64,000 nucleotides of DNA, from positions 62,001-126,000 of the forward strand of contig CM041196.1 of assembly GCA_023078555.1 (NCBI GenBank). Direction: 5' to 3'. Source of the DNA: Ulva prolifera. Lineage: Eukaryota > Chlorophyta > Ulvophyceae > Ulvales > Ulvaceae. The translations under genes were made by a program, and so were the position numbers. This document shows, piece after piece, positions 11,853-60,000 of the stretch (position 1 is its first letter; every line of letters begins with the position of its first letter). The notes below the pieces were generated by a model that saw nothing but the letters and a program-made list of their open reading frames with translations, did no database searches and was not told where the DNA came from.

Positions 11853-11864
11853 GAAGGGGGGAGG
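11853..11864 (+). other. Polypurine tract of the TRIM
   Basis: GAAGGGGGGAGG lies immediately before the TG start of the right LTR. This is the expected place and composition for the primer of plus-strand DNA synthesis. Confidence 0.82.
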
Positions 11865-36100: not shown

Positions 36101-36110
36101 TGCATTACGA
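12143..36110 (+). repeat. 117-bp satellite array, segment 2
   Basis: About 205 monomers continue in the same orientation and phase as segment 1. Local higher-order patterns visible from shared variants include B-A dimers of 234 bp (16684-17390, 22880-23580, 24170-24640) and a 470-bp tetramer carrying a 2-bp gain AATATATAGG (17391 and 17861). There is also a block of about 11 monomers repeated at 1284 bp (18448 and 19732), where the offset of 1287 minus 3 is explained by that 2-bp gain plus a 5-bp loss in GCATGGAGCTGC. Tetramers of 463 bp carry the same 5-bp loss (22163 and 22626). B monomers show spelling variants after TAACGTA (GTGTTGGGG, GTTTTGGGG, CTGTTGGGG) that cluster regionally. No gene is supported here. 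Confidence 0.97.
36109..36110 (+). other. Target site duplication (left), CACTA-like element
   Basis: GA precedes the element, and a second GA follows it at 49719-49720. The joined flanks read TGCATTACGAGAGGTGCCCT, a normal satellite monomer sequence. A 2-bp duplication is within the range reported for CACTA-superfamily insertions outside plants. Confidence 0.82.
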
Positions 36111-36123
36111 CACAGGAGCTACG
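36111..36123 (+). repeat. Left terminal inverted repeat
   Basis: CACAGGAGCTACG pairs with the reverse complement of 49706-49718 (CACAGAAGCTACG) at 12 of 13 positions. Sequence inside this point diverges quickly. Confidence 0.9.
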
Positions 36124-36600
36124 GTGGACATGACTCACCCAGGTGGTCCACATGGTTGGGTGATCCACAGAAAGGTGATCCAATAAATATATTCCGTGAA
36201 AGACCTCCGTTACTGCTGTGACAGCGTTTATGAGTGTACGGTGTGGACATGCAGTGCTTGAGCATCGATTGCCTAGGTGTATGATCGTGTAGTGTGGAGG
36301 TGGCAAGTACCAGGTGCACTTGAGGCACACTTTTGGGGTGCGCCAGACGTCTGGGTGAGCTACCAGCAGGTGTTCCACATGGGAACTGGGCTGCCAAGAT
36401 GTTAAAATGGGATGCAGTGCCCCCTTATTATCAATTCTTATATTGTAGACTCAATTCAAGCCATATGTGTCCCACTTGAGCAGGTTGGCCTCAACCGCAC
36501 ACGGGCTGGAGCCCCACCCGCTTGGTGCGCCGTGAATATGGGTGCGCCATATCCAGGTGAGTTACATGTGGTTGGGGCCCCGTCGTAAAACTACAGTAAG
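36124..36600 (+). repeat. Left subterminal repeat region
   Basis: Short motifs recur here. GGTG(G/T)TCCACATGG occurs at 36142-36155 and 36369-36382. Related GGGTGATCCAC is at 36158 and AAGGTGATCCAAT at 36172-36184, and a looser CAGGTGAGTTACATGTGG is near 36554. GTGCGCC occurs near 36338, 36519 and 36542. AAGGTGATCCAAT has a perfect inverted partner near the right end at 49663-49675. Such subterminal motifs are typical binding sites for CACTA transposition proteins; binding here is inferred. Confidence 0.7.
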
Positions 36601-37047
36601 TATGCGTGGCCACATACACGGCTTTGTCGGATATGGCTTTGAGTCAAGCGTGCACTACTTCGTTACTAAGTGCGTTAGTAACGTTTGCGTTCCGGCCGAT
36701 CACTCCAGGCTGGAGCAGATACCAGCACCCTCCGGAGTGAGTAAGTGCTTCATGCAAGTGCTGTATGTTATCGAATTCTGCTAGGCCCGATCGACGGCCA
36801 TGCCTGGCGATTAAGCGGGCTTACCGGTGGCGTCCGGGGCTGTGGCTCTGGTGCGATACGTAGGATGCTTTGCGTTTATGCAGCCAAGGTTCCCGTACGA
36901 AGCCACCGTCACTAGTTACTATTGATTTCTATGACACTGCAATCGGTACTATTGGTGCCAGTGTGCCCTGGCCTTGTGGGTGCGTCGTTCCTGTACAAAT
37001 GTCTTGCATGCAGGCATCGCCGTGATTGCCACCCTTCCACATGAGTA
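36601..37047 (+). other. Upstream region of the transposase gene; no gene seen
   Basis: About 450 bp between the subterminal repeats and the first transposase ATG. Short open frames here have no recognisable content. The region presumably holds the promoter and 5' leader, but I see no convincing TATA box or other core element. Confidence 0.5.
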
Positions 37048-40000
37048 ATGGCGGAGAAGCGGTCCAGAGACTTCTTCGTAGCCTTGGATCACGATTGGTA
37101 TTTCTGTTCTGTCTGTGATAAACCGTGTCGCTTCACGAAAAACTTGAGCAGGCATCTGTGTAATCCGAATCACCAAGAGCAGGCGCAACTCGCTCGCGAA
37201 GCTGGGGTAACTTCTTTTTACCCTGTTCCAAATGAAGTAACACCAACTGTCTGCCGGTACGTTGCACCTCTGAAGCCTGCCGAGACAGAGTCGTCGCCAC
37301 CTGCGGAGGCATTGGAACTGCCGGATCTGCCTAACAGCCCCAATCCGAACAACGAACCCGAAGTAGACGACACTTCGGACTCTGAACACGGAGAAGCGCC
37401 GAAGTTGGTTGATCTAGTGACATCGCAATGTCCGTATCTGCCATCAGATGATGAGGATGAAACGATTCTGCATTGGGAGGTTGACGACAGTCCCACTGAC
37501 GGCTCTCTCCGTGTACACCCAGACATTGATGACACTGACAACTTCATCAACGCCGTACGCCCTTTCGTGTTACCAAAGCTATGTGCGTATCCATAGGTCC
37601 ATGCTCATGCCCAGATAGCCAAGGGTGGGGGTATGATCCACTTGCATGCCAGCGCACCATGCTCTGTTCTTGGATGCAGGATATTGAGGACTTTGTCAGA
37701 TTCGCCGTTGATGACTGGAGGGCTCGTGGGGGTTCAGGTGTCGATGATCTTCTGCGTGATGCCCGTGCGTCTGGTTTGTGTGCAGGATCAGACCTTTCCA
37801 TGGAGATACTGACAGCTGAGTTGGCCTGTCGCATGGACACTCTGAAACTTCAACAGTTGGATCCAGCTCTTGCAGTGCCGAAGGCACGCACCGTGCGTTG
37901 GTATCAGCAGAATGCTGATGAGCCAGTGGCAGCGGGTTCTACAGTAACAGTACGACAAGCTTGCTTTTGTCTCGCAGCGCTCAAGTTTCGCGGGGGGATG
38001 ACTGGGACTTGTTTGGACACAATTTGTAGAATGCTGTCACTAGGGGGATTTTTTGTAGATGAAAACAATATGATACCCAGGTGGCGTCCCTCCGTTGTGA
38101 CAATCTGGGTGCAATTGTCGTTGTACATGATTACCCGTCTCGATGATTTACTTCAATTGGCAAGTCCGTTCACGAGACATGGGTCCATGTATGTGCAGGT
38201 CCGAGCACATCATCAATGGTGTACTGTGCTTGCAAAAGCCAGACGAGTACTCGTGGGATATGTGTGACAACGGGCAGTGTCCCACTGTTTTTGGACGACA
38301 GTTGCCTTCGGCGCAACGCCATCAGAGACAAGGCGAAAGGTGCAAGCGGTGTGGAAATCAACGTTTTCAGAAGCGAAATAAACAGCTGCAGGCAGTCCGG
38401 AGGTGCGTGTCTCTAATCCCACCTCAATCCGATGCTACTGTATGCACTTCCCTACACACGTGTCGAGGCGGGCAACATGCGTTTTAGTATTTATTTGTGG
38501 CATGCAGTGCTTATGTGCTCAAAGTTGAAGATGTGGTGAGCCACTTGTTCAGAGCAGATCAGTTTGCTCGTTTTGCCGGTATGAGGTCACGAGCCATGCT
38601 GGACTCGCCTCTCTACCAGCAACTGGATGAGGCGCATGGCCGTGCTCTTTCTGCTTTGGATAGTAGTCAGACGCAGTCTGAGGTTCCCGTCGGTGGTGCT
38701 GTACCTATGCATCCACCTGCTGAGGCAGCACCAGCAGCTCCTTACCGAGATCCCTTACATGAGCCTGTGGACACGGATCCAAGCGACGAGGTCATGACCG
38801 GGGCGGGTGACACCCTTACACTGTTGTTTGCTCTGTTCGTTGATGGCGTGCAGTTGCATGGGCATGGAAGGGATACTACCACAGTCATTGGGCTGAAGTG
38901 CCTCGATTTGCCTGCTTTTTTGTGCCACACAGATTTGGCCTGCTACGCTCTTGCCTTCATTGGAGGCCCGAAGGAGCCTTCAGATTTGTCTGAAATCATT
39001 TCGATCATTCTTGATCAATTCAAATGCCACGAGCCATTGACTCAGACTGACAGAGAAGGTAAATGAACCAACAAATGGGTGCTGATTGATTTGCGTAGCG
39101 TCTTGCATGCACCTGTCACATGGTTGCCTCTACATTGTCGAAACATTGACATAGCGGGGCAGTCTGCACATTCTCTGTAGGTAAGAAGTTTATTCGAGGG
39201 GATCCAATCCGGGTGTGGGACAGCCACAGAAAAAAGTGGCGTCGCGTATTCCCAGTCATTGTTTTTGGATTTGCGGATACACCTGCAAGACGAATATGGG
39301 CGCTCACAACGGGCCATACAGGTATCAGAGGGTGTGACAAGTGCGGTGTGCGGGGTATCCGATCATTGCTGGACGGAGTGCAGCTGGGGTGGACAGCCTT
39401 TGTGGGATTTCGGAAACCTTGCAAGGCAGTGATACTGTGTCCAGAGGAGGACTCGGTGTGGGGCTGCTCTTCAGGTTACCCTCTTTCGTCCATCTTGGCT
39501 ACATTTGTTCAGACCTTCGTGATTGGCTGCGCAGGATACTCCCTGGAAGGCCATCAAGGTTCAATTCGGGAGGAAGGGGCAACCTGACCAGGCAGCACTC
39601 GCCACAGTCAGGATCACTGATGCCGTTCACCGAATCCGTAGTGAAGAGGCTGACCAAATCACCCGGGACTCAGAGGCAATGTTCCCTCTGCCGCCCCTCG
39701 CCGCTGGAGGGGGGTCTCTCACAGCTGATCCAAATTCGACCGAACAGCGTCGGCTCACCAGAGGTGCGTGCCATAACACGTACTTCGTCTTTGCTGCATT
39801 AAAAGTGGGACGCCCTTGTATGCTTGTTCATGCTTCATTCCATGTTTGCATCCATTGAATTCACATCCGTTCTACACATAGAGTGTCAGGCCAAATGGGA
39901 GGAGAGGTTTAAATACGCAAATGAGAAGCATAAAACCCTCGGGTGTCGCGGTGTGAACTCTTTTCAGGCCAGTGACCTGAAGGGATATGAGTGTGTTCCC

Positions 40001-41786
40001 ACCCCCATCACCAGTCCCGCCCACTGCTTATTATTTGTTTGGATTTCGGACTAGTATTAATTTTGGCAAAGCTCGATCGTCGGAAGTCGGTGCAATGCAG
40101 TTTCCAGCATACATTTGTCGAACCCGTTTCGCACTCGATTCTGTACGCTCTTGTGCGTAATTTCTTGGAGCTCATTTGCCACACCGGTAATGGCCTCAAA
40201 GTGGATGGCCGGAAGTTCAGTTTGCCAAGAAACTTGAAAGACAGATTGGATACCTTTACCGACAAGTTCAAGTACCCCTCGGCTTATAACCGCACTCCTC
40301 CAAGACTCAACAGGTGTGTTGTGAAGGTCTATGTTGTGCCACAGCCACGGCGTCGACTCCTGCTGTAAGCTTTACATTATCTCCACAGTGACCACGGTGC
40401 AGAGGAATTGCAGTAAGTAGATGGCTCTTTGAGGAGGTCAACACGTTTGTGGAGGTCACAGGTGCCATGCTATTTTATGTTGCCAGGGATGAAGTCCACC
40501 CAGGAATCTTGAAGATGTGGACTCATTTACGGAAGTTTGCTATATACTTTTTGCATTATCGACCCGGACAACATACAGAATCTCAGGTCCTGGCGGCCCA
40601 GAAGGAGATGTTTCAGTTTGGAGAATACGCAGAGGAGCACCTGCGATGCAAGACGCTGACTCTCCTCATTCATAGGTGTTTTGCCCATTTGCCTTATCAA
40701 GTCCTGTCCACATTACCAGGAGCCTATCTTAAAGAAGATTGGGGGGAGAGGTTAGTACGCCGCACCAAGGGCAAGATCACGGGACACTCCACGAAGCAGG
40801 CGCCCAGGGCCTCAGCTGGTGTGTGCCTGGTAGAGATGGGTTTGAGGATTTGTCAGCAAGAACATCCAGGTATTGATGCGCCGTTATTACGAATCAGGCC
40901 ACCCACCTCCTCCAGGGATATGGACCCAGGTGATGTTTTTGGAACAGCGTTGCATCAGCTGAAGCTAGCCTTCACTGGAGACGATGGCGACGAGGTCAGT
41001 TTCTCGAACATCAAGCATGCTCTTTGATGCTCTTGTGTGAATTGTGCATTGAGGAAAGGCTTCGTAACGCTGAGTGTGTTGTAGGGTTCAAAGTTTGCAG
41101 CGGTTTTGGAAGAGATGGCTGCCAAAGCCGGACGATCGCATCAAGTCGTAGGTGAGCTGGAGTTGGCGGGGGTTTTAAGAGAGAGGCATGTCAGGGGAAA
41201 CTTCCACGTCCCCACTGGCTGTGTGGTGTGGGACGGGGGGATTCAGGCCACGGTGATGTGTTCGGACTCTGCAACCATCCAGAGTGGGGCATTTGTGATT
41301 CGGACAGCAGTGGGTTCTTCGGCAGATGGCCGGACACACACTGACCAGTTCGTGTACGTGCCGTTCCGATCGAGAACGAAGCATAATGCGTGCATCATGG
41401 AGATCAAGCACCTGATGCTGGTGCACAGGCAGGGGATGGGGTGGCCCAATGACGAGGCTAGGCTAGCTGTAGGTACGCTGTGGGACAACCTCAGTATACG
41501 AGAAGGCGCAGGCCTCGAGACTGCATTCAACGACGATCCTACACGAGGGGCATGTTCCATTCCTCGTGCCTTGTTCATGTCTCCTACTCGCCGTAAGAAG
41601 GGTTACAATCACATTGTCCATATTCGGCAGATTGCATGCCCATGTGTGTATATACCAGATCGCGAGAAAGGCGATTACTTTATTACCATTAGTAAGATGG
41701 GGTTCACAGGCAGGCGGGACTTGTTGTTTGAGGCGGCTTGTGGACAATCTCAAGAGGATGATAGTGGCGGGGGCGGTTCATCGTGA
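37048..41786 (+). CDS. Tnp2-like transposase of the CACTA element, ten predicted exons
   Basis: Predicted exons: 37048-37566 (end uncertain, 37554 also fits), 37680-38080, 38199-38402, 38508-39058, 39181-39428, 39535-39763, 39882-39990, 40101-40313, 40421-40994, 41085-41786. All phases join into about 1,250 residues. The first ATG precedes a C2H2 finger (Cys20, Cys23, His36, His42) and an acidic stretch. A Cys pair cluster (DMCDNGQCP, later CKRCGNQRF) comes before the Tnp2 core. The core has FVDGVQLHG (probable first catalytic Asp), TTGHTGIRGCDKCG, GYDFQHTFVEPVSHSILY, and a late KEDWGERLVRRTKG with the likely Glu. The second acidic position, usually in a D-P-M-H context, reads VEPVSH. The protein should bind the element ends and catalyse excision and insertion in the nucleus. 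Family assignment rests on motif order. Introns are 90-122 nt, mostly with GTG-type donors. The stop is TGA at 41784. Confidence 0.85.
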
Positions 41787-41857
41787 CTAGTGCAGCACTA
41801 GGCCTCTTTACTAGCTAATGCCATGTAACACTACAAAGATGGCAGGCACTCTAGAAG

Positions 41858-44210
41858 AAAAGTCATTAAACAAGTGCAGTGATCGATGGAATCCGGACGT
41901 CTGCATAATTTTCCGGCACTGATCTGACACAACCAGCTCCAAGTGGCCAAGCAGGTTGTCAAAAAAAAAAATAGCGGTCCGGGTATTGAAAGCTTGTTTA
42001 CTGTTGCAAAAGGTCATTAAACAAGAGCTGTGATTCATTGAATCCGGACAGGCACATATTTTCGGGCACTGATGGGACAGAGCCACCTCCTGCTTGCAAG
42101 CAAGTTGTCCACAAAAAAAAGTAGCGGTCCGGGTATTGAAAGCTTGATTACTGTCGCAAAATGGCATTAAACAAGAGCTGTGATTCATTGAATCCGGACA
42201 GGTACATATTTTCGGGCACCGATCTGACACAACCAGCTCCAAGTGGCCAAGCAGGTTGTCCAAAAAAAAAGTAGCGGTCCGGGTATTGAAAGCTTGTTTA
42301 CTGTCGAGAAATGGCATTAAACAAGAGCTGTGATTCATTGAATCCGGACAGGTACATATTTTCGGGCACCGATCTGACACAACCAGCTCCAAGTGGCCAA
42401 GCAGGTTGTCCAAAAAAAAAAAGTAGCGGTCCGGGTATTGAAAGCTTGTTTACTGTTGCAAAAGGTCATTAAACAAGAGCTGTGATTCATTGAATCCGGA
42501 CAGGTACATATTTTCGGGCACTGATGGGACAGAGCCACCTCCTGCTTGCAAGCAAGTTGTCCAAAAAAAAAAGTAGCGGTCCGGGTATTGAAAGCTTGTT
42601 TACTGTCGCAAAATGGCATTAAACAAGAGCTGTGATTCATTGAATCCGGACAGGTACATATTTTCGGGCACCGATCTGACACAACCAGCTCCAAGTGGCC
42701 AAGCAGGTTGTCCAAAAAAAAAAGTAGCGGTCCGGGTATTGAAAGCTTGTTTACTGTCGCAAAATGGCATTAAACAAGAGCTGTGATTCATTGAATCCGG
42801 ACAGGTACATATTTTCGGGCACCGATCTGACACAACCAGCTCCAAGTGGCCAAGCAGGTTGTCAAAAAAAAGTAGCGGTCCGGGTATTGAAAGCTTGTTT
42901 ACTGTCGCAAAATGGCATTAAACAAGAGCTGTGATTCATTGAATCCGGACAGGTACATATTTTCGGGCACCGATCTGACACAACCAGCTCCAAGTGGCCA
43001 AGCAGGTTGTCCAAAAAAAAAAAGTAGCGGTCCGGGTATTGAAAGCTTGTTTACTGTTGCAAAAGGTCATTAAACAAGAGCTGTGATTCATTGAATCCGG
43101 ACAGGTACATATTTTCGGGCACTGATGGGACAGAGCCACCTCCTGCTTGCAAGCAAGTTGTCCAAAAAAAAAAGTAGCGGTCCGGGTATTGAAAGCTTGT
43201 TTACTGTCGCAAAATGGCATTAAACAAGAGCTGTGATTCATTGAATCCGGACAGGTACATATTTTCGGGCACCGATCTGACACAACCAGCTCCAAGTGGC
43301 CAAGCAGGTTGTCCAAAAAAAAAAAGTAGCGGTCCGGGTATTGAAAGCTTGTTTACTGTTGCAAAAGGTCATTTAACAAGAGCTGTGATTCATTGAATCC
43401 GGACAGGTACTTATTTTCGGGCACTGATGGGACAGAGCCACCTCCTGCTTGCAAGCAAGTTGTCCAAAAAAAAAAGTAGCGGTCCGGGTATTGAAAGCTT
43501 GTTTACTGTCGCAAAATGGCATTAAACAAGAGCTGTGATTCATTGAATCCGGACAGGTACATATTCTCGGGCACCGATCTGACACAACCAGCTCCAAGTG
43601 GCCAAGCAGGTTGTCCAAAAAAAAAAAGTAGCGGTCCGGGTATTGAAAGCTTGTTTACTGTTGCAAAAGGTCATTAAACAAGAGCTGTGATTCATTGAAT
43701 CCGGACAGGTACTTATTTTCGGGCACTGATGGGACAGAGCCACCTCCTGCTTGCAAGCAAGTTGTCCAAAAAAAAAAGTAGCGGTCCGGGTATTGAAAGC
43801 TTGTTTACTGTCGCAAAATGGCATTAAACAAGAGCTGTGATTCATTGAATCCGGACAGGTACATATTTTCGGGCACCGATCTGACACAACCAGCTCCAAG
43901 TGGCCAAGCAGGTTGTCCAAAAAAAAAAAGTAGCGGTCCGGGTATTGAAAGCTTGTTTACTGTCGCAAAATGGCATTAAACAAGAGCTGTGATTCATTGA
44001 ATCCGGACAGGTACATATTTTCGGGCACCGATCTGACACAACCAGCTCCAAGTGGCCAAGCAGGTTGTCAAAAAAAAAAGGTGCGGTCCGGGTATTGAAA
44101 GCTTGTTTACTGTCGCAAAATGGCATTAAACAAGAGCTGTGATTCAATGAATCCGGACAGGTACATATTTTCGGGCACCGATGGGACAGAGCCACCTCCA
44201 GGCCGTCCAA
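41858..44210 (+). repeat. 150-bp minisatellite inside the transposon (about 15.5 copies)
   Basis: Units of 148-152 bp begin GTAGCGGTCCGGGTATTGAA at 42121, 42271, 42423, 42573, 42724, 42872, 43024, 43174, 43326, 43476, 43628, 43778 and 43930; the 44080 unit has GGTGCGG instead. Each unit ends in an A-run of about 7-11, which accounts for most of the length variation. Two versions of the last third occur: X (CCGATCTGACACAACCAG) and Y (TGATGGGACAGAGCCACC, with the 12-bp palindrome TGCTTGCAAGCA). From 42121 the order is X X Y X X X Y X Y X Y X X, then a truncated Y-like unit. The first copy is diverged and lies about 70 bp after the transposase stop. Apparent minus-strand proteins here are repeat translations. 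Confidence 0.94.
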
Positions 44211-45292
44211 TTTTTTTTAGCAATCCATGTAATGCAAAATTCTGTATCGAACACAAGTGTAGTAGAGGAGAACAACAAAACACTCACAGACTCGAAACAC
44301 ACTGCATTGACAGCAATGCAACTCTGATATGTTACATTGGGCGGCAGCAGCCAAGTATCGACATGGGCTACAAGAAAGCAAACAGCAGATAGCACAACAT
44401 GCAGGTTCTCGAGGCAAAGGAATCTAATCATTCATTCTCAACTGTGGTATCAGGCAATGGTACATATTCAGTGTTGAATCTGATCACACTGGCACGGCCA
44501 GTGGTGCGCCAATCTTGTGAAAGAGCCACCTGCACAGCCATAACTATCAGATAATATCGACATTATTCCTATTCAAACCTGCAACCCAGGACTCATCTAC
44601 TGTTTCGAGTGGATGACTGGCCGGTAGACCACAAGTATATGCAGGTATTATGGGCACAAGCCTGTCTGCAACGTCGGGATAGCCACTCTCTCTGCACACG
44701 ATCCAGTCTGAAATCTTCCTGAATCCGGTTTGTTGTTGCCGCGTCTGGCCAAGAGGTCTGGGTGCGGAGTTGGTGTATCCCTACTGCAATCCGCAGAAAC
44801 CAATGGCCGTCAACACCGGGGTCAGCGGGGTCATCAAGCGGCACACACATAGGCACCGATAAAGCGCCCCTAAACGTTGGCTGCTGATGGAGTCGGCTGT
44901 CTATGACACTTCCGGCGAAGGTCGGTTAGTTAATTACCGTCAGCATACAGACAATTCAGTACGGGTCGTCACGATCGCACATTTGCGCACAGGGCAAGCA
45001 ATTGACATCACATATACCGCGGAATATTTTTGTTTTCTTGCTTATGTCACAACCTTCTTGCCCTTCGTGCAAAACGCGGACTCGTTAGCGTCACAGGCGA
45101 ACTCTAGCTGTGTGGCTACATGGGTGGGTGTCTGGCGGACACCACCACGTCGCCCTAGTCGCGAGAAGTCGTGCAGCCATTCGAAATAACAGCTCACAGC
45201 CCCGTCGTCTGCCGGTGGGGCTCCCCAGGTTATCTCAATTCGCACGGATGTGTTGCGTGCATCGAATTCGTATCTCGTAGTCAATTCGCAGA
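44211..45292. other. Spacer between the two transposon genes; no gene seen
   Basis: About 1.1 kb between the minisatellite and the second gene. Open frames on both strands are short and unrecognised, with no domain or clear splice pattern. The segment must contain the promoter of the downstream gene if that gene is transcribed separately. No core promoter element stands out. Confidence 0.5.
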
Positions 45293-48267
45293 ATGGACGA
45301 GGAGACGCAGACCATCGCTGTGAGGAAGCTTGAGGCCATACTGGTCCTCCTTGGCGACGATGAAGTGTGTATTAGTCTACGGAAAAAAGAAAATGAATGC
45401 ATCGAAACTTTCCTCAATGATCGCCAGGATACTTTCGTCCGGAAGGTGCACGCCAAGACAACACAACGCTTCTTTTACGTTCCAGGCATTGCCGGCCTTG
45501 ACGCGGACACAGCGGAGGCGATTTTTGTGGACGTGGTGTATGTAGCTTATCAAAAAGACGAGGTGTGGAAGCTGGCGACTGCAGGAAAGAAGGGGCTCGT
45601 TGGAGTCATGCGGATGGAGTCTCCAAACTCTCGCGTCCCGACCCACGTTGCGCCGAAGGCGGGAAGTAAAAATGGCAAGAAGACATACCGCGATCCCACA
45701 AAGGTACGATTGGTCAACCTAATGGCGTTGGCATCCACTGCCTCGGGAGTCACTGTTGTTGTTATGTGTCCATTCGAATTCGCCTAGACCGAGCCAGCTC
45801 AACCCGGCCGCATGTAGGCAGAAAAGAAATTATTGAGAGATCTCGAACTTTACACGCCGCGAGTTTCGATGGAAGCCTTCATCCATATCAGTGTGTATTT
45901 GGGAGCAGACATCCATAGACTCGGAGCTTCTCTTTTCCCTGGTGCGGTCGTGTCCCAACTCATTCGCAAGCAACTAAGAGGCAAGCTCGGTTGGGCCAGG
46001 GACTGTGTGACATTGGTGCGTTGACCGATCCACTGATTTTCGAACAATGTCGCTTCGCACGAGCCCACTCGGCGCCTTGTATGCACATTACCTTCAGCGA
46101 CGAATGTACATGCGATGGAGCGTGTTTGTAATCTTAGAAACGCCAATTTGTAGAGCCTAGAAGGCCTTGATCAACTGCGGACGGCATTTAGCTTCGGAGG
46201 GAGCGCACAGAAGTGCTGAGGATGACGCTTTCATACATCAAGCGTTTCGCTGCCAAACACCACAAGCCGTTGGCAGCGAGGCTCGCCAAAGCTGTTTTCA
46301 GGCATTTCACCAAGAGTCACAACACCAATAATGCACGCAAGGTAAGAGCTGCATTCGATGTGCTGTTCTTGTCTTGGCTGTTCAACAAGAACAAGACCGG
46401 CGAACTCAGCAAGCTCTTGGCGGAAGCCCCCTGGAGTTTCGGTGAGGATGTGGTGAACGACACATTGACAGGTCTCGGGGGCATTTTCGAGCAGAGGAAG
46501 GAAGCCGTTCCAGGCTTGATCTCGAAACTGTTCAGAGACGCCCTACGCAAAGACATTGTTGGCCTAGTGAAATCTAAAAACGCAGAAACGGTATGAACCG
46601 ATGTTGTATTCAAGTACCCTTACAAATGTACCTGCTGACACAACTACATCACAATGGAGTATTCAATCCCGGAGGCCTGTGACCTCCAGCAGGGATGTTT
46701 GTAGGGAGTGCGGGCCCTGCAAATTGAATTTGCGAAGACCTTCAAGAATGACAATACACTGCAGACCGCAATTGAAAACGGTGTGCCGTCTTTTGCCCAT
46801 CTACCACCTGAGCTGAACTTGACAGAGGTAATAGATTGGGGTGTAGATTGGGGCACATCCGGGGATCCCAGCGAGGCTTCGCCGTTGGCCTTCAGCTGCG
46901 AAGACAGATACCTCCCTCGTCCATGCGAGCAAAAGGACCGACGGCTGCGCCAGTCAACGGAGACCTGCAATCTGTCACAACTCCTTGCTCCCTCGGGAGA
47001 AAATGCTCCTGCGGCCATGGTCGTTTTCTCGAAGCTCCGGCCCCTGCTCGAATGGAAGGTGCCAGTGCCAGAACGTGAAGATGAGTCACCAGACTCCCCC
47101 AAACCAGACGACCTGTCAGAATTTTTTCATGTATCCGCAGAATCCGAGGTTACGGAAGGTGATGACGGATCAGGGAGCACGCCATCAGCAGCTGAAGTCG
47201 ATGATGTGCCTTTCCCGGGGCCTTCAGGTGGCTTCCTGCATGTCCACGGAGTGCTCCTACTAGAACCATTGTTGGAGTATGTGGTGCGCTACAGCGAGAA
47301 ATGTGTGGACATTATCCGTTGTGAGCAACTGCATGTGCATCGATGATGTGTCATTGTGGCTTATTACAGGAGGATCTATTCAAATTTTATGGCATGCCAC
47401 CGCCGCTGGCACTGAAACACTTTGTCGATACAATGCGGTGTGTCACACCGCAGAAGCCCGGGTCTGAGGTTCAAGTGGCAGCTGATGACAACAAGCCAGA
47501 CATCACGACCGACAATGAGTTCTCCTCTGACGACGAAGATGAGTCGGCAGATGCAAGACGCTAGCTCGCAGCACAGGAACAAGCCAGATCAGAGCGAAGA
47601 CAGCGAAGGACAGGCATATCTCTCAAGTCTGGTCACGGTTCGTCGCGTGTAGGGCCATCCAACAACAAAGCAAGTGCTTCAGATGCTCAGGAGCAACGAG
47701 TGCCAGGCGTGCCCGAAGAAACAGAGATTGCCGCTACAACTGAGATCTGCAACGCGGTGAGTCTTCCTAGTCCTCAAGCTTGAGACATTGTGTCACCTTT
47801 TACTCACAACATTTTGCTAGATTAATGTGACATGAGCATACTGTACATGGACAATCACACACACGTCATCACGTTTCCAGGTGACAGAGACAAGTGAACA
47901 AACGCAGCGTCTTTTGACAATGGCACCTGGAGACGCAGCTGAGACAGGCCCTTCGAAGAGGCGTAGGACAACAAGCCGTCCCCAAACGAAGCTGTCCCCC
48001 AAGGTAAGTCTGTGCTGAGCCCTGTTAGCTATGGAACGAGATGTATGTCTACAGAGACGTGTGTTTGTGCCACATGCTGCAACTGCCCCGGACACTGTGT
48101 GCATGCATTTTAGTCAAAGACACTATCGACCTTTGCAGGATCCCGAGGGAACCGAGGATGAGGAGGAGGCTGACACAACACAGGGGGTACATCCTGCTCC
48201 AGGAGGTCTCAAGAGGCGAGCATCACAACGCAGGAAGCAACCGAGCACCAGACTGGCTGCAAAATGA
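45293..48267 (+). CDS. Second gene of the transposon, unknown function, seven predicted exons
   Basis: I do not recognise this protein. A consistent model has exons 45293-45703, 45818-46015, 46192-46590, 46705 to about 47283 (47250 or 47280 also possible), 47370-47756, 47881-48003 and 48139-48267. Every exon is a multiple of three, so all introns are phase 0. The last donors are textbook GTGAGT and GTAAGT. The product would be about 740 residues. Exons 1-3 look like compact helical, basic sequence (ends ..RKVRAAFDVLFLSWLF, ..KSKNAET). Exon 4 turns acidic and Ser/Pro-rich, exon 5 has SSDDEDESADARR, and the tail is Lys/Arg-rich (KRRRTTSR, LKRRASQRRKQ), resembling nuclear localisation signals. 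An in-frame TAG at 47562-47564 splits exon 5, yet the same frame stays open for 64 more codons to a good splice donor. By position it could be the accessory DNA-binding protein of a CACTA element. This is inference. Confidence 0.6.
47562..47564 (+). other. In-frame TAG stop inside exon 5 of the second gene
   Basis: The frame GCA AGA CGC TAG CTC GCA GCA continues open past the stop for 64 codons to the donor at 47757, and the next two exons keep phase. It may be a nonsense mutation, a real end with alternative 3' exons, or a site missed by my splice model. Confidence 0.6.
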
Positions 48268-49676
48268 TAGTTCAATGTGTTGATGTGTTGATGCCACCGG
48301 CAAGGTGTCAGCCTGTTCATGATGGAGGGGGATGGGTGCCTGCACCAGTGATGGGTGCCAGCACCAATGATGGGTGCTAGCACCAATGGCCAGATGTAAT
48401 AAAAAACATATGTACCATCGCAGTGAGGAAACAAGCAGCATTCTACCATTCTGGATTTGTTTTTATCGGCTTCTGTGATGTATGGCACACTTCGTGAGCG
48501 CATCCTGACAGCTTGGCACACCCGGCCGGGTGCTCCCCCTGGGTGAGACAACCCCCGGGAGGAGGGGCTATGGTTTTAGGTGTGCCACGGAACAGTGAGC
48601 CGGTCAGAAACTTCACCGGAAAGGACCTCAATGACACGAGACACTGTATTAATATGTATAATCAACATCCGCAACCGCACGTTACGCTTGTAGGGGGTCA
48701 GCGACGCATGCCGGAGCTATTTAAACTTCCCGATTGAAGAGCCGGCGCAGTGGGATGACGGCTTGACACTCTCCATAGGTTCCAGAAGATGGGAGGGTGC
48801 CATTGAAGCTAAAAGCGTTTTATTCAGCCGTCGGCGGGCTATGGTTGCCTCGCGCAGCTATCGTGTCCGGTGATGCGTACAGCATGATCTGGAATTAACG
48901 AAGCACAGGGAATGCACGCCGGTACGTCAGACAGCACTCCAGTGGTGTCCATTACTGTAATATATTTTAAACGACGGCGTACAGTTGTCCAGCTGCTGTG
49001 CGGTCCTTAACATTGGCACTGAGCCAAGGCTGAAGGGCACACGCATACCCCACCGGTAACCAAGTACAGGGCAGCGGGTCACACCTGCGGCTAAAGTAGA
49101 GCTCTAAGTGATGAAAGTCACTCAACTGAGTGTCATGGTTCGCTGTTTGGGAGCCCAAAACATGGCCTTGCGCCAGAGACCAGACACGTTGCACATGCCG
49201 ATGCCCGCGCATATACAACCGCAAGCCTTCGCTACACAGCGGCAACAGCTACCGATCAACACAGATGCATCAACAACCTAATGTATGCATTGTACGAACG
49301 CCACAGCATGTCTATGGTTGTCTAACCACGAGGGCGCCAGAGTGGTGCAAGCAAAGCCAAGCGGGTAAGTGGCGGAACGATGACCCGAGCTACACGATAG
49401 GCGACGTTGATCGACACAGAGCCACAACATGTTATACAATTGAGCTTCTCGTCGCGTTTCTTGCGGAAACGTAGGCCCGAGCAGCCCGTATCCGCCTGCG
49501 CGTCATGATATAGTGCTGTATTGGCGACACGCACAGTTCATCGTAAACTCCTCCGATTCATTACGGATCAACGCCATGTGTACATATACACAATGTTCTA
49601 TCCACTACAAGCAACAGCGGACGTTTACAGGCTCTGGAGCCACTTTGACCTGATCGCGTTTCATTGGATCACCTTC
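48268..49676. other. Right non-coding portion of the transposon
   Basis: About 1.4 kb after the second gene. Open frames are short and unrecognised. It includes three 19-bp palindromic repeats, listed separately, and the right subterminal region. ATTGGATCACCTT at 49663-49675 is the exact inverted copy of 36172-36184 at the left end. Confidence 0.6.
48331..48387 (+). repeat. Three 19-bp units with GGTGC..GCACC dyads
   Basis: Tandem units at 48331, 48350 and 48369 each start GATGGGTGC and contain an inverted pair GGTGC-NN-GCACC; the third is a perfect 12-bp palindrome GGTGCTAGCACC. It lies just after the second gene's stop codon and could act as a protein-binding or 3' structure site, but no function is shown. 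Confidence 0.8.
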
Positions 49677-49700
49677 GTGGCGCACCAACCTGTGCGCCAC
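49677..49700 (+). repeat. Right subterminal perfect hairpin
   Basis: GTGGCGCAC and GTGCGCCAC form a perfect 9-bp inverted repeat around the loop CAACCT, ending 18 bp from the transposon tip. GTGCGCC also occurs near the left end, so this is a candidate recognition site for the element's proteins. Confidence 0.8.
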
Positions 49701-49705
49701 TTTCG

Positions 49706-49718
49706 CGTAGCTTCTGTG
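49706..49718 (-). repeat. Right terminal inverted repeat
   Basis: CGTAGCTTCTGTG reads CACAGAAGCTACG on the minus strand, one mismatch from the left end. It is followed directly by the GA target duplication and satellite sequence. Confidence 0.9.
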
Positions 49719-52249
49719 GAGAGGTGCCCTGAACACAATGCACCAAGTGAATATAGGCCGCGTGATAGATCGAGATTCGGTAACTCAGACACCGATGTTC
49801 CGAAGTGCGGGCAGCATGGAACCTAGCTGCATTACGAGAAGTGCCCTGAACACCACGCACGAAGTGAATATGGGCCGCGTGATAGATCGAGATTCGGTAA
49901 CTCAGACACCGATGTAACGTAGTGTTGGGGCAATTGAACTTGGCTGCATGATGAGAAGTGCCTTAGACACAACGCACCAAGTGAATATAGGCCGCGTGAT
50001 AGATCGAGATTCGGTAACTCAGACACCGATGTTCCGAAGTGCGGGCAGCATGGAACCTAGCTGCATTACGAGAAGTGCCCTGAACACAACGCACCAAGTG
50101 AATATAGGCTGCGTGATAGATCGAGATTTGGTAACTCAGACACCGATGTAACGTACTGTTAGGGCAATTGAACTTGGCTGCATGATGAGAAGTGCCCTAA
50201 ACACAACGCACCAAGTCAACATGGGCCGCGTGATAGATCGACATTCGGTAACTCAGACACCGATGTTCCGAAGTGCGGGCAGCATGGAACCTAGCTGCAT
50301 TACGAGAAGTGCCCTGAACACCACGCACGAAGTGAATATGGGCCGCGTGATAGATCGAGATTCGGTAACTCAGACACCGATGTAACGTAGTGTTGGGGCA
50401 ATTGAACTTGGCTGCATGATGAGAAGTGCCCTAAACACAACGCACCAAGTGAATATGGGCCGCGTAATAGATCGAGATTCGGTAATTCAGACACAGATAT
50501 TCCAAAGTGCGGGCAGCATGGAACCTAGCTGCATTACGAGAAGTGCCCTGAACACAACGCACCAAGTGAATATAGGCCGCGTGATAGATCGAGATTCGGT
50601 AACTCAGACACCGATGTTCCTAAGTGCGGGCAGCATGGAACCTAGCTGCATTACCAGAAGTGCCCTGAACACAACGCACCAAGTGAATATAGGCCGCGTG
50701 ATAGATCGAGATTCGGTAACTCAGACACCGATATTCCGAAGTGCGGGCAGCATGGAACCTTGCTGCATTACGAGAAGTGCCCTGAACACAACGCACCAAG
50801 TGAATATAGGCCGCGTGATAGATCGAGATTCGGTAACTCAGACACCGATGTTCCGAAGTACGGGCAGCATGGAACCTAGCTGCATTACGAGAAGTGCCCT
50901 GAACACAATGCACCAAGTGAATATAGGCCGCGTGATAGATCGAGATTCGGTAACTCAGACACCGATGTTCCGAAGTACGGGCAGCATGGAACCTAGCTGC
51001 ATTACGAGAAGTGCCCTGAACACAATGCACCAAGTGAATATAGGCCGCGTGATAGATCGAGATTCGGTAACTCAGACACCGATGTTCCGAAGTGCGGGCA
51101 GCTAGGAACCTAGCTGCATTACGAGAAGTGCCCTGAACTCAACGCACCAAGTGAATATAGGCCGCGTGATAGATCGAGATTCGGTAACTCAGACACCGAT
51201 GTTCCGAAGTGCGGGCAGCATGGAACCTAGCTGCATTACGAGAGGTGCCCTGAACACAATGCACCAAGTGAATATAGGCCGCGTGATAGATCGAGATTCG
51301 GTAACTCAGACACCGATGTTCCGAAGTGCCGGCAGCATGGAACCTAGCTGCATTACGAGAAGTGCCCTGAACACAACGCACCAAGTGAATATAGGCCGCG
51401 TGATAGATCGAGATTCGGTAACTCAGACACCGATGTTCCGAAGTGCGGGCAGCATGGAACCTAGCTGCATTACGAGAAGTGCCCTAAACACCACGCACGA
51501 GGTGAATATAGGCCGCGTGATAGATCGAGATTTGGCAACTCAGACACCGATGTTCCGAAGTGCGGGCAGCATGGAACCTAGCTGCATTTCGAGAGGTGCC
51601 CTGAACACAATGCACCAAGTGAATATAGGCCGCGTGATAGATCGAGATTTGGCAACTCAGACACCGATGTTCCGAAGTGCGGGCAGCATGGAACCTAGCT
51701 GCATTTCGAGAGGTGCCCTGAACACAATGCACCAAGTGAATATAGGCCGCGTGATAGATCGAGATTTGGCAACTCAGACACCGATGTTCCGAAGTGCGGG
51801 CAGCATGGAACCTAGCTGCATTACGAGAAGTGCCCTGAACACCACGCACGAAGTGAATATGGGCCGCGTGATAGATCGAGATTCGGTAACTCAGACACCG
51901 ATGTAACGTAGTGTTGGGGCAATTGAACTTGGCTGCATGATGAGAAGTGCCCTAAACACAATGCACCAAGTCAACATGGGCCGCGTGATAGATCGACATT
52001 CGGTAACTCAGACACCGATGTTCCGAAGTGCGGGCAGCATGGAACCTAGCTGCATTACGAGAAGTGCCCTAAACACAATGCACCAAGTGAATATAGGCCG
52101 CGTGATAGATCGAGATTTGGCAACTCAGACACCGATGTTCCGAAGTGCGGGCAGCATGGAACCTAGCTGCATTACGAGAAGTGCCCTGAACACCACGCAC
52201 GAAGTGAATATGGGCCACGTGATAGATTGAGATTCGGTAACTCAGACAC

Positions 52250-55200
52250 CGATGTAACGTAGTTTTGGGGCAATTGAACTTGGCTGCATGATGAGAAGTG
52301 CCCTAAACACAACGCACCAAGTGAATATGGGCCGCGTGATAGATCGAAATTCGGTAACTCAGACACCGATGTTCCGAAGTGCGGGCAGCATGGAACCTAG
52401 TTGCATTACCAGAAGTGCCCTAAACACAATGCACCAAGTGAATATAGGCCGCGTGATAGATCGAGATTTGGCAACTCAGACACCGATGTTCCGAAGTGCG
52501 GGCAGCATGGAACCTAGCTGCATTACGAGAAGTGCCCTGAACACCACGCACGAAGTGAATATGGGCCGCGTGATAGATCGAGATTCGGTAACTCGGACAC
52601 CGATGTAACGTAGTTTTGGGGCAATTGAACTTGGCTGCATGATGAGAAGTGCCCTAAACACAACGCACCAAGTGAATATGGGCCGCGTGATAGATCAAGA
52701 TTCAGTAACTCAGACACCGATGTTCCGAAGTGCGGGCAGCATGGAACCTAGCTGCATTACCAGAAGTGCCCTGAACACAACGCACCAAATGAATATAGGC
52801 CGCGTGATAGATCGAGATTCGGTAACTTAGACACCGATGTAACGTAGTGTTGGGGAAATTGAACTTGGCTGCATGATGAGAAGTGCCCTAAACACAACGC
52901 ACCAAGTGAATATGGGCCGCGTAATAGATCGAGATTCGGTAATTCAGACACAGATATTCCAAAGTGCGGGCAGCATGGAACCTAGCTGCATTACGAGAAG
53001 TGCCCTGAACACAACGTACCAAATGAATATAGGATGCGTGATAGATCGAGATTCGGTAACTTAGACACCAATGTAACGTAGTGTTGGGGAAATTGAACTT
53101 GGCTGCATGATGGGAAGTGCCCTAAACACAACGCACCAAGTGAATATGGGCCGCGTAATAGATCGAGATTCGGTAATTCAGACACAGATATTCCAAAGTG
53201 CGGGCAGCATGGAACCTAGCTGCATTACGAGAGGTGCCCTGAACACAACGCACCACGTGAATATAGGCCGCGTGATAGATCGAGATTCGGTAACTCAGAC
53301 ACCGATGCTCCGAAGTGCGGGCAGCATGGAACCTAGCTGCATTACGAGAAGTGCCCTTAACACACCGCACCAAGTGAATATAGACCGCGTGATGGATCGA
53401 GATTCGGTAACTTAGACACCGATGTTCCGAAGTGCGGGCAGCATGGAACCTAGCTGCATTACGAGAGGTGCCCTGAACACAATGCACCAAGTGAATATAG
53501 GCCGCGTGATAGATCGAGATTCGGTAACTCAGACACCGATGTTCCGAAGTGCGGGCAGCATGGAACCTAGCTGCATTACGAGAAGTGCCCTGAACACAAC
53601 GCACCACGTGAATATAGGCCGCGTGATAGATCGAGATTCGGTAACTCAGACACCGATGCTCCGAAGTGCGGGCAGCATGGAACCTAGCTACATTACGAGA
53701 AGTGCCCTGAACACAACGCACCAAGTGAATATAGGCCGCGTGATAGATCGAGATTCGGTAACTCAGACACCGATGTTCCGAAGTGCGGGCAGCATGGAAC
53801 CTAGCTGCATTACGAGAAGTGCCCTGAACACAACGCACCAAGTGAATATAGGCCGCGTGATAGATTGAGATTCGGTAACTCAGACACCGATGTTCCGAAG
53901 TGCGGGCAGCATGGAACCTAGCTGCATTACGAGAAGTGCCCTTAACACACCGCACCAAGTGAATATAGGCCGCGTGATAGATCGAGATTCGGTAACTCAG
54001 ACACCGATGTTCCGAAGTGCGGGCAGCATGGAACCTAGCTGCATTACGAGAAGTGCCCTAAACACCACGCACGAGGTGAATATAGGCCGCGTGATAGATC
54101 GAGATTTGGCAACTCAGACACCGATGTTCCGAAGTGCGGGCAGCATGGAACCTAGCTGCATTTCGAGAGGTGCCCTGAACACAATGCACCAAGTGAATAT
54201 AGGCCGCGTGATAGATCGAGATTTGGCAACTCAGACACCGATGTTCCGAAGTGCGGGCAGCATGGAACCTAGCTGCATTTCGAGAGGTGCCCTGAACACA
54301 ATGCACCAAGTGAATATAGGCCGCGTGATAGATCGAGATTCGGTAACTCAGACACCGATGTTCCGAAGTGCGGGCAGCATGGAACCTAGCTGCATTACGA
54401 GAAGTGCCCTGAACACCACGCACGAAGTGAATATGGGCCGCGTGATGGATCGAGATTCGGTAACTTAGACACCGATGTTCCGAAGTGCGGGCAGCATGGA
54501 ACCTAGCTGCATTACGAGAAGTGCCCTTAACACACCGCACCAAGTGAATATAGACCGCGTGATGGATCGAGATTCGGTAACTTAGACACCGATGTTCCGA
54601 AGTGCGGGCAGCGTGGAACCTAGCTGCATTACGAGAGGTGCCCTGAACACAATGCACCAAGTGAATATAGGCCGCGTGATAGATCGAGATTCGGTAACTC
54701 AGACACCGATGTTCCGAAGTGCGGGCAGCATGGAACCTAGGTGCATTACGAGAAGTGCCCTGAACACCACGCACGAAGTGAATATGGGCCGCGTGATAGA
54801 TCGAGATTCGGTAACTCAGACACCGATGTAACGTAGTGTTGGGGCAATTGAACTTGGCTGCATGATGAAAAGTGCCCTAAACACAATGCACCAAGTCAAC
54901 ATGGGCCGCGTGATAGATCGACATTCGGTAACTCAGACACCGATGTTCCGAAGTGCGGGCAGCATGGAACCTAGCTGCATTACGAGAGGTGCCCTGAACA
55001 CAATGCACCAAGTGAATATAGGCCGCGTGATAGATCGAGATTCGGTAACTCAGACACCGATGTTCCGAAGTGCGGGCAGCGTGGAACCTAGCTGCATTAC
55101 GAGAGGTGCCCTGAACACAATGCACCAAGTGAATATAGGCCGCGTGATAGATCGAGATTCGGTAACTCAGACACCGATGTTCCGAAGTGCGGGCAGCATG

Positions 55201-57300
55201 GAACCTAGCTGCATTACGAGAAGTGCCCTAAACACAATGCACCAAGTGAATATAGGCCGCGTGATAGATCGAGATTTGGCAACTACTCAGACACCGATGT
55301 TCCGAAGTGCGGGCAGCATGGAACCTAGCTGCATTACGAGAAGTGCCCTGAACACCACGCACGAAGTGAATATGGGCCGCGTGATAGATCGAGATTCGGT
55401 AACTCGGACACCGATGTAACGTAGTTTTGGGGCAATTGAACTTGGCTGCATGATGAGAAGTGCCCTAAACACAACGCACCAAGTGAATATGGGCCGCGTG
55501 ATAGATCAAGATTCAGTAACTCAGACACCGATGTTCCGAAGTGCGGGCAGCATGGAACCTAGCTGCATTACCAGAAGTGCCCTGAACACAACGCACCAAA
55601 TGAATATAGGCCGCGTGATAGATCGAGATTCGGTAACTTAGACACCGATGTAACGTAGTGTTGGGGAAATTGAACTTGGCTGCATGATGAGAAGTGCCCT
55701 AAACACAACGCACCAAGTGAATATGGGCCGCGTAATAGATCGAGATTCGGTAATTCAGACACAGATATTCCAAAGTGCGGGCAGCATGGAACCTAGCTGC
55801 ATTACGAGAGGTGCCCTGAACACAACGCACCACGTGAATATAGGCCGCGTGATAGATCGAGATTCGGTAACTCAGACACCGATGCTCCGAAGTGCGGGCA
55901 GCATGGAACCTAGCTGCATTACGAGAAGTGCCCTTAACACACCGCACCAAGTGAATATAGACCGCGTGATGGATCGAGATTCGGTAACTTAGACACCGAT
56001 GTTCCGAAGTGCGGGCAGCATGGAACCTAGCTGCATTACGAGAGGTGCCCTGAACACAATGCACCAAGTGAATATAGGCCGCGTGATAGATCGAGATTCG
56101 GTAACTCAGACACCGATGTTCCGAAGTGCGGGCAGCATGGAACCTAGCTGCATTACGAGAAGTGCCCTGAACACAACGCACCACGTGAATATAGGCCGCG
56201 TGATAGATCGAGATTCGGTAACTCAGACACCGATGCTCCGAAGTTGCGGGCAGCATGGAACCTAGCTACATTACGAGAAGTGCCCTGAACACAACGCACC
56301 AAGTGAATATAGGCCGCGTGATAGATCAAGATTCGGTAACTCAGACACCGATGTTCCGAAGTGCGGTCAGCATGGAACCTAGCTGCATTACGAGAAGTGC
56401 CCTGAACACAACGCACCAAGTGAATATAGGCCGCGTGATAGATTGAGATTCGGTAACTCAGACACCGATGTTCCGAAGTGCGGGCAGCATGGAACCTAGC
56501 TGCATTACGAGAAGTGCCCTTAACACACCGCACCAAGTGAATATAGACCGCGTGATGGATCGAGATTCGGTAACTTAGACACCGATGTTCCGAAGTGCGG
56601 GCAGCGTGGAACCTAGCTGCATTACGAGAGGTGCCCTGAACACAATGCACCAAGTGAATATAGGCCGCGTGATAGATCGAGATTCGGTAACTCAGACACC
56701 GATGTTCCGAAGTGCGGGCAGCATGGAACCTAGGTGCATTACGAGAAGTGCCCTGAACACCACGCACGAAGTGAATATGGGCCGCGTGATAGATCGAGAT
56801 TCGGTAACTCAGACACCGATGTAACGTAGTGTTGGGGCAATTGAACTTGGCTGCATGATGAAAAGTGCCCTAAACACAATGCACCAAGTCAACATGGGCC
56901 GCGTGATAGATCGAGATTCGGTAACTCAGACACCGATGTTCCGAAGTGCGGGCAGCATGGAACCTAGCTGCATTACGAGAGGTGCCCTGAACACAATGCA
57001 CCAAGTGAATATAGGCCGCGTGATAGATCGAGATTCGGTAACTCAGACACCGATGTTCCGAAGTGCGGGCAGCATGGAACCTAGGTGCATTACGAGAAGT
57101 GCCCTGAACACCACGCACGAAGTGAATATGGGCCGCGTGATAGATCGAGATTCGGTAACTCAGACACCGATGTTCCGAAGTGCGGGCAGCATGGAACCTA
57201 GGTGCATTACGAGAAGTGCCCTGAACACCACGCACGAAGTGAATATGGGCCGCGTGATAGATCGAGATTCGGTAACTCAGACACCGATGTAACGTAGTTT
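52250..57300 (+). repeat. Large segmental duplication inside the satellite (about 2.8 kb period)
   Basis: Ordered variant monomers around 52476-52951 recur at 55287-55762, an offset of 2811 bp (24 monomers plus a 3-bp gain in GGCAACTACTCAG near 55275). Further right the offset falls to 2577 bp (53107 to 55684), so the second copy lacks two monomers. This indicates duplication followed by an internal deletion or unequal exchange. Confidence 0.8.
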
Positions 57301-60000
57301 TGGGGCAATTGAACTTGGCTGCATGATGAGAAGTGCCCTAAACACAACGCACCAAGTGAATATGGGCCGCGTGATAGATCGAGATTCGGTAACTCAAACA
57401 CCGATGTTCCGAAGTGCGGGCAGCATGGAACCTAGCTGCATTACTAGAAGTGCCCTGAACACAACGCACCAAATGAATATAAGCCGCGTGATAGATCGAG
57501 ATTCGGTAACTCAGACACCGATGTAACGTAGTGTTGGGGCAATTGAACTTGGCTGCATGATGAGAAGTGCCCTAAACACAACGCACCAAGTGAATATGGG
57601 CCGCGTTATAGATCGAGATTCGGTAATTCAGACACAGATATTCCAAAGTGCGGGCAGCATGGAACCTAGCTGCATTACGAGAAGTGCCCTGAACACAAAG
57701 CACCAAGTGAATATAGGCCGCGTGATAGATCGAGATTCGTTAACTCAGACACCGATGTTCCGAAGTGCGGGCAGCATGGAACCTAGCTGCATTACGAGAA
57801 GTGCCCTAAACACAATGCACCAAGTGAATATAGGCCGCGTGATAGATTGAGATTCGGTAGCTCAGACATCGATGTTCCGAAGTTTGGGCAGCATGGAACC
57901 TAGCTGCATTACGAGAAGTGCCCTGAACACAACGCACCAAGTGAATATTGGCCGCGTGATAGATCGAGATTCGGTAACTCAGACACCGATGTAACGTACT
58001 GTTGGGGCAATTGAACTTGGCTGCATGATGAGAAGTGCCCTAAACACAACGCACCAAGTGAATATGGGCCGCGTAATAGATCGAGATTCGGTAATTCAGA
58101 CACAGATATTCCAAAGTGCGGGCAGCATGGAACCTAGCTGCATTACGAGAAGTGCCCTGAACACAAAGCACCAAGTGAATATAGGCCGCGTGATAGATTG
58201 AGATTCGTTAACTCAGACACCGATGTTCCGAAGTGCGGGCAGCATGGAACCTAGCTGCATTACGAGAAGTGCCCTAAACACAATGCACCAAGTGAATATA
58301 GGCCGCATGATAGATTGAGATTCGGTAGCTCAGACATCGATGTTCCGAAGTTTGGGCAGCATGGAACCTAGCTGCATTACGAGAAGTGCCCTGAACACAA
58401 CGCACCAAGTGAATATTGGCCGCGTGATAGATCGAGATTCGGTAACTCAGACACCGATGTAACGTACTGTTGGGGCAATTGAACTTGGCTGCATGATGAG
58501 AAGTGCCCTAAACACAACGCACCAAGTCAACATGGGCCGCGTGATAGATCGACATTCGGTAACTCAGACACCGATGTTCCGAAGTGCGGGCAGCATGGAA
58601 CCTAGGTGCATTACGAGAAGTGCCCTGAACACCACGCACGAAGTGAATATGGGCCGCGTGATAGATCGAGATTCGGTAACTCAGACACCGATGTAACGTA
58701 GTTTTGGGGCAATTGAACTTGGCTGCATGATGAGAAGTGCCCTAAACACAACGCACCAAGTGAATATGGGCCGCGTGATAGATCGAGATTCGGTAACTCA
58801 AACACCGATGTTCCGAAGTGCGGGCAGCATGGAACCTAGCTGCATTACTAGAAGTGCCCTGAACACAACGCACCAAATGAATATAAGCCGCGTGATAGAT
58901 CGAGATTCGGTAACTCAGACACCGATGTAACGTAGTGTTGGGGCAATTGAACTTGGCTGCATGATGAGAAGTGCCCTAAACACAACGCACCAAGTGAATA
59001 TGGGCCGCGTTATAGATCGAGATTCGGTAATTCAGACACAGATATTCCAAAGTGCGGGCAGCATGGAACCTAGCTGCATTACGAGAAGTGCCCTGAACAC
59101 AAAGCACCAAGTGAATATAGGCCGCGTGATAGATCGAGATTCGTTAACTCAGACACCGATGTTCCGAAGTGCGGGCAGCATGGAACCTAGCTGCATTACG
59201 AGAAGTGCCCTAAACACAATGCACCAAGTGAATATAGGCCGCGTGATAGATTGAGATTCGGTAGCTCAGACATCGATGTTCCGAAGTTTGGGCAGCATGG
59301 AACCTAGCTGCATTACGAGAAGTGCCCTGAACACAACGCACCAAGTGAATATTGGCCGCGTGATAGATCGAGATTCGGTAACTCAGACACCGATGTAACG
59401 TACTGTTGGGGCAATTGAACTTGGCTGCATGATGAGAAGTGCCCTAAACACAACGCACCAAGTGAATATGGGCCGCGTAATAGATCGAGATTCGGTAATT
59501 CAGACACAGATATTCCAAAGTGCGGGCAGCATGGAACCTAGCTGCATTACGAGAAGTGCCCTGAACACAAAGCACCAAGTGAATATAGGCCGCGTGATAG
59601 ATTGAGATTCGTTAACTCAGACACCGATGTTCCGAAGTGCGGGCAGCATGGAACCTAGCTGCATTACGAGAAGTGCCCTAAACACAATGCACCAAGTGAA
59701 TATAGGCCGCATGATAGATTGAGATTCGGTAGCTCAGACATCGATGTTCCGAAGTTTGGGCAGCATGGAACCTAGCTGCATTACGAGAAGTGCCCTGAAC
59801 ACAACGCACCAAGTGAATATTGGCCGCGTGATAGATCGAGATTCGGTAACTCAGACACCGATGTAACGTACTGTTGGGGCAATTGAACTTGGCTGCATGA
59901 TGAGAAGTGCCCTAAACACAACGCACCAAGTCAACATGGGCCGCGTGATAGATCGACATTCGGTAACTCAGACACCGATGTTCCGAAGTGCGGGCAGCAT
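57200..60000 (+). repeat. Twelve-monomer higher-order repeat (1404 bp), two copies
   Basis: Matching rare variants are offset by exactly 1404 bp: GTAACGTAGTTTTGG at 57289 and 58693, and GATTCGGTAGCTCAGACATC at 57851 and 59255. Inside each copy the same variant repeats at 468 bp (58319 and 59723), so a tetramer is nested within a dodecamer. Boundaries are approximate because the flanks are the same satellite. Confidence 0.88.

Follow-up and report, generated by a model that had tools for sequence, protein, structure and literature searches.

A complete CACAG-tipped DNA transposon with a 2-bp target duplication in algal satellite DNA, very probably of the CMCT clade

As a norm in plants, CACTA elements have CACTA or CACTG tips and generate a 3-bp target duplication. 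The published descriptions of CACTA elements give CAC..GTG tips, short terminal repeats, a length often above 10 kb, and an intron-bearing transposase gene accompanied by a second gene (PMC4158355, PMC10741241), and CACTA elements that combine 5′-CAC..GTG-3′ tips with a 2-bp duplication are described as well, among them the Ciona savignyi element ENS1_Cis and the miniature CMC-NA elements (PMC6004678). The CACTA/EnSpm-Mirage-Chapaev-Transib (CMCT) clade is described as having a transposase in which D, D, C(2)C, H(3-4)H and E follow one another, with CA..TG tips in most cases and duplications of 2 to 5 bp; the same description gives Plavaka tips as TGT..ACA or CATCA..TGATG and ESTA duplications as TA (PMC12730594). 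Here we set against these systems an element lodged in a satellite array. The window, which is the whole stretch of 64,000 bp that was analysed, corresponds to bases 62,001-126,000 of contig C1, and the genome searched comprises 88.9 Mb in 44 contigs. In this genome 38 stretches match the chlorophyll a/b-binding family; the best of them, compared with PDB sequences, hits chains named chlorophyll a-b binding protein, with a two-domain chain named LHCI-2 first by summed score, so that the host probably is an alga whose plastid is of the green type. The insertion is laid out as follows:

1 to 36110, no strand: left side of the 117-bp satellite array (Tandem Repeats Finder), interrupted by a 748-bp insertion at 11395-12142
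36109 to 36110, no strand: left copy of the target duplication GA
36111 to 49718, plus strand: whole transposon, 13,608 bp, defined by tips, duplication, empty site and other copies
36111 to 36123, plus strand: left terminal inverted repeat, CACAGGAGCTACG
49706 to 49718, plus strand: right terminal inverted repeat, CGTAGCTTCTGTG
49719 to 49720, no strand: right copy of the target duplication GA
49719 to 60428, no strand: right side of the 117-bp satellite array (Tandem Repeats Finder)

The satellite itself supplies the uninterrupted target. When the flanks are joined with one GA removed, the resulting 38-mer has 51 exact matches in the window, and 600 bp of joined flanks align with the array at 96.7% at best, over 602 columns with 2 gaps and no large break. 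The tandem GAGA of the satellite could blur the call of a GA duplication, and the bases that follow GCTGCATTACGA were therefore counted: its 235 occurrences in the window are followed by GAAG (162), GAGG (56), GAAC (9), AAAG (4), AAAT (3) and CACA (1), the single CACA being the transposon insertion, and none of the other 234 comparable sites holds a GAGAGA variant that would mimic the duplication. The boundaries, the GA duplication and the reconstructed satellite empty site put forward in an earlier note on this DNA are thus all borne out. Its 13-bp terminal repeats are present as well, though not as a perfect match in the window copy, where CACAGGAGCTACG and CGTAGCTTCTGTG pair at 12 of 13 bases with the mismatch at position 6.

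Several other features of the satellite and its surroundings were observed. The 748-bp insertion at 11395-12142 has 278-bp direct terminal repeats (277/278 identical), TG..CA ends and a 5-bp GAACA duplication, and looks like a miniature LTR retrotransposon (TRIM). Between 5937 and 9937 there are five places where satellite units are longer by 22 bp (139-bp units), the added bases being a part of the monomer that is duplicated. Just outside the satellite, at 60450-60980, a segment of roughly 80 bp can be made out by eye as two diverged copies in direct orientation, and at 63530-63590 lies a tRNA-like stretch that ARAGORN does not call, in which motifs resembling box A and box B are visible by eye. 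Rfam gave no match in the window.

The genome holds further copies with the same boundaries. The first 190 bases of the transposon match eight places and the last 319 bases match five, the window included in both counts; the first 60 bp of the left end likewise match eight places, six of which (again including the window) are 100% identical over 59-60 bp. Both ends are present in five copies. Besides the one in the window, these are a 12,271-bp copy on contig C4, a 24,138-bp copy on C6 with two nested inserts, an 18,480-bp copy on C3 with one nested insert and an internal deletion of about 820 bp close to the left end, and a second, small copy on C3, a 1,669-bp deletion derivative in which about 0.3 kb from the left end and 1.4 kb from the right remain. 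The main collinear blocks of the four other copies are 94.2-99.7% identical to the window copy, and identity is lower in blocks between shifted units of an internal repeat. The three further left ends are truncated or attached to another body. A 57-bp stretch on C4 (3.706 Mb) that is 91% like the left tip sits on a different body, perhaps that of a related element family.

The check suggested in the earlier note, a search for further copies sharing the tips and a 2-bp duplication, gave a clear answer for the tips and a divided one for the duplication. CACAG..CTGTG tips occur in all five two-ended copies, and the 13 terminal bases are common to them apart from a single varying base in the right tip; in the C4 copy the terminal inverted repeat is perfect. 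A 2-bp duplication flanks three of the five, GA in the window, CA on C4 and AG on C6, and is absent from the large (CG/CT) and the small (GT/TC) C3 copies, for which rearranged flanks would be our guess. With a chance of 0.065 for a random 2-bp match, at least three in five has a probability of about 0.0025. No two-ended copy has different ends or, at the tested lengths of 1 to 9, a longer duplication, so that the boundary call stands. Five-base tips are frequent by chance, and CACAG-like tips might on that ground happen to bracket an insertion of another origin or a join made in assembly; the copies on other contigs that start and end at the same bases refute this, and we give it practically no credence. 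Abutting the right end of the 1,669-bp copy, which has no 2-bp duplication, is a palindromic stretch made of AAGTCATAGAGGGTAAACG and its complement.

A second kind of empty site comes from the C6 copy, whose flanks belong to a dispersed repeat that is retrotransposon-like by eye. A 398-bp query of its joined flanks is spanned fully by 13 places at 89-90% identity, and an 82-bp junction query by 14 places. These sites are 5 bp longer than the query; since the extra bases could have spoiled the boundary call, four of the sites were read. Each of them has the extra bases farther upstream, inside the host repeat, and a single AA at the junction, as against AG on both sides in the C6 copy. For the C4 and small C3 copies, a search of the genome found no uninterrupted site. 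The window copy lies within the satellite array, as it would if the element preferred the satellite as a target rather than landing there by chance. Against such a preference, the 1-kb flanks of the other four two-ended copies contain no satellite match, the C6 copy sits in another repeat, and an array of more than 46 kb in the window alone is a large random target; this is a weak test on five copies, in which the large C3 copy had its flanks checked against the satellite only. We regard a preference as very unlikely, and given that the other four copies have no satellite within 1 kb on each side, the satellite would be a chance target of the window copy.

The C6 copy also contains a nested element of 11,125 bp with tips CACAGGCCAGATG and CATCTGGCCTGTG, again of the CACAG..CTGTG type, a 20-bp perfect inverted repeat by eye and a CT duplication, its empty site being the intact sequence of the window-type element. 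The C6 copy and this nested element are bounded about as cleanly as the window copy, and the rarity that had been claimed for such clean bounding was therefore overstated. The other insert in the C6 copy (about 1.737-1.739 Mb) is 1.48 kb long; its edges carry an 8-bp repeat, TACATTTG, and inverted tips are not obvious. The insert in the large C3 copy (7.8 kb, about 4.796-4.804 Mb) starts with CACTAGG and ends with CCTAGTG, with a 3-bp ACA duplication by reading, and has no match to the coding segments of the window element at E 1e-3; it reads as a CACTA element of the classical type within this genome.

The left part of the window element carries nine plus-strand segments between 37048 and 41783 that are open in the window copy and kept in relatives:

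37048 to 37557, plus strand: core segment E1, with a C2H2-like finger as a weak Pfam match (E 0.13, below cut-off)
37677 to 38078, plus strand: core segment E2
38194 to 38403, plus strand: core segment E3, with cysteine pairs, zinc-ribbon-like by eye
38503 to 39036, plus strand: core segment E4, with VDG as the proposed first catalytic D
39198 to 39437, plus strand: core segment E5, with ADTPAR as the proposed second D and CDKC as the C(2)C pair
39553 to 39765, plus strand: core segment E6
40096 to 40314, plus strand: core segment E7
40398 to 40997, plus strand: core segment E8, with HRCFAH as H(4)H and GER as the proposed catalytic E
41088 to 41783, plus strand: segment E9, conserved C-terminal domain

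Frame-preserving GT..AG candidates occur at all eight segment junctions, with 2 to 10 choices each, and from the frames and these candidates we infer that the nine segments would form one spliced transposase gene. In five diverged relatives (L052, L025, L058, L053 and L066; 70-77% identity), drawn from a chosen set of 16 loci, E8 differs from the window copy by 0.75-0.89 per synonymous site and 0.14-0.19 per non-synonymous site, an excess of synonymous differences which indicates that these segments encode protein and are subject to selection; the diverged relatives were taken because the phase of differences among the near-identical copies is too sparse for use. At E <= 0.001 the genome has at least 159 matches to E4 and at least 150 to E8, counted as segments and not as elements, both being lower bounds with 150 candidates scored of 218 (E4) and of 220 (E8).

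The motifs of the window protein follow one another as VDG, ADTPAR, CDKC, HRCFAH and GER. Alignments were built from stop-free, non-identical segments of the fetched loci, each motif set including the window and three near-identical copies, with the window sequence representing its own locus; they hold 15 of 16 listed sequences for E4, 17 of 18 for E5, 14 of 16 for E8 and 12 of 12 for E9. Segments with stops or breaks were left out, for example E2 of L031, E9 of L051, and E5 and E8 of L063, whose E9 is open and was aligned. D119 is kept in 15/15 sequences of the E4 alignment (A4), D43, C62 and C65 in 17/17 of the E5 alignment (A3), and H99 and E119 in 14/14, with H94 in 13/14, of the E8 alignment (A1). 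We propose that the catalytic D, D and E are the residues of VDG, ADTPAR and GER, chosen by motif since other conserved acidic residues are also present, and read from the motifs because the predicted structures, made for segments E9 and E8 only, were unusable (mean pLDDT 34 and 42) for judging an RNase H fold. RAG1 probably has a similar H-H-E spacing.

Family models do not recover this protein. Pfam scans of all 12 coding segments, those of the second gene included, gave no transposase and only weak unrelated matches below cut-off; Transposase_21 (PF02992) against the genome gave nothing over cut-off and two sub-threshold matches (best E 0.03), neither in the window element, and divergence may mask a homology to Tnp2, the family of this model. 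Profiles of E9 and E8 had no match among PDB sequences. Pattern matches to A1 and A3 in viral contigs, and to A1 in bacterial and archaeal genomes, were found, none of them confirmed.

The remainder of the element holds an internal repeat and a second gene:

41864 to 44200, no strand: 150-bp internal tandem repeat, 15.5 units
45281 to 47346, plus strand: second gene, three open segments (45281-45787, 46192-46596 and 46705-47346)

As estimated from anchors on either side, the repeat is shorter elsewhere, with about 6.6 units in the C4 copy and 1.5 in both the C6 and the large C3 copies. The second gene, which has no Pfam match in any of its three segments, stands beside the transposase as in CACTA/EnSpm and is collinear in the 11,125-bp nested relative. 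That relative keeps all 12 coding segments in the same order, at 55-67% identity to the window copy for E3-E5 and E7-E9, 30-46% for E1, E2 and E6, and 25-30% for the second gene. At the ends, subterminal repeats are not significant, since 20 (300-bp ends) and 23 (400-bp ends) of 200 shuffles matched or exceeded the top 8-mer count, and shuffles attained the top 6- and 7-mer counts more often still; GGTG(N1-3)CCA, a pattern picked after looking, occurs 7 times in 800 bp of ends versus 6 times in 12.8 kb of interior. Phage records gave no match to the first 790 bp.

Based on these findings, the window element is very probably a complete cut-and-paste DNA transposon of the CMCT clade, its completeness as a DNA transposon, already claimed in the earlier note, being borne out by the boundaries, the other copies and the empty sites. 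It has three putative acidic residues, with C(2)C and H(4)H lying between the second and the last by motif, and tips of the CA..TG form in five of five copies, with a 2-bp duplication at three and none at two; in motif order, tips and duplication length it resembles the clade as published, a likeness to the description rather than to member sequences, and its CACAG tips and 2-bp duplications are within the range given there. Likewise, 5′-CAC..GTG-3′ tips together with a 2-bp duplication recall ENS1_Cis and the CMC-NA elements, as these are described rather than by sequence. With CACTA/EnSpm, as far as the cited descriptions go, it shares CAC..GTG tips, short terminal repeats, size, a second gene and, as inferred here, a transposase gene with introns. 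The earlier label of CACTA-like therefore holds for the tips, the two-gene layout, the multi-segment transposase gene and the D-D-C(2)C-H(4)H-E order, whereas strict CACTA membership goes beyond the evidence, because the tips are CACAG in all five copies and not CACTA or CACTG, the duplication where present is 2 bp and not 3 bp, and Pfam, Transposase_21 included, has no transposase match. As Pfam gave no transposase and the E9 and E8 structures were unusable, the assignment reaches the CMCT clade and not CACTA/EnSpm proper.

Within the same broad clade, the element could instead lie outside CACTA/EnSpm proper, in a separate lineage nearer Plavaka or ESTA, or in an unnamed one, which would refine the CMCT assignment and not oppose it. 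The lack of a Pfam transposase match, the CACAG tips with 2-bp duplications, and the several such lineages that the clade's description contains (PMC12730594) speak for this placement; the two genes, the size and the CAC..GTG tips fit the CACTA descriptions (PMC4158355, PMC10741241), and neither the Plavaka tips nor the TA duplications of ESTA fit the element (PMC12730594), so that we consider it rather doubtful, if still a serious contender. We also propose tentatively, at a little under an even chance, that the element represents a separate CMCT lineage which has expanded in an alga and which current family models overlook. Its hallmarks would be CACAG..CTGTG tips and 2-bp duplications, together with a second gene and a transposase of nine segments that has a conserved C-terminal domain of its own; the nested relative keeps this whole layout while its core transposase segments have diverged to 55-67% identity.

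For the CMCT-clade transposon described here, we propose that the transposase would bind the CACAG tips, cut the element out and join it to the target with a 2-bp stagger, which repair would turn into the target duplication. The second protein may assist transposition, and the 1,669-bp copy might have been moved by the transposase of a full copy.

In conclusion, this work reports a new family of a known broad transposon class, set against the named families by description, whose least usual trait is that CACAG tips and 2-bp duplications come together with a transposase missed by family models. Since its ends and 2-bp duplication hold in other copies, it is a well-bounded but ordinary member of that class; some CACTA elements with a 2-bp duplication are already on record (PMC6004678), and the general view of how such elements work is unchanged. 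What is gained, for a lineage missed by Pfam scans, is that its ends are known to the base, its 2-bp duplication has been measured and its empty sites have been located in two host repeats unrelated to each other; this could seed the annotation of a large repeat fraction in the host genome.
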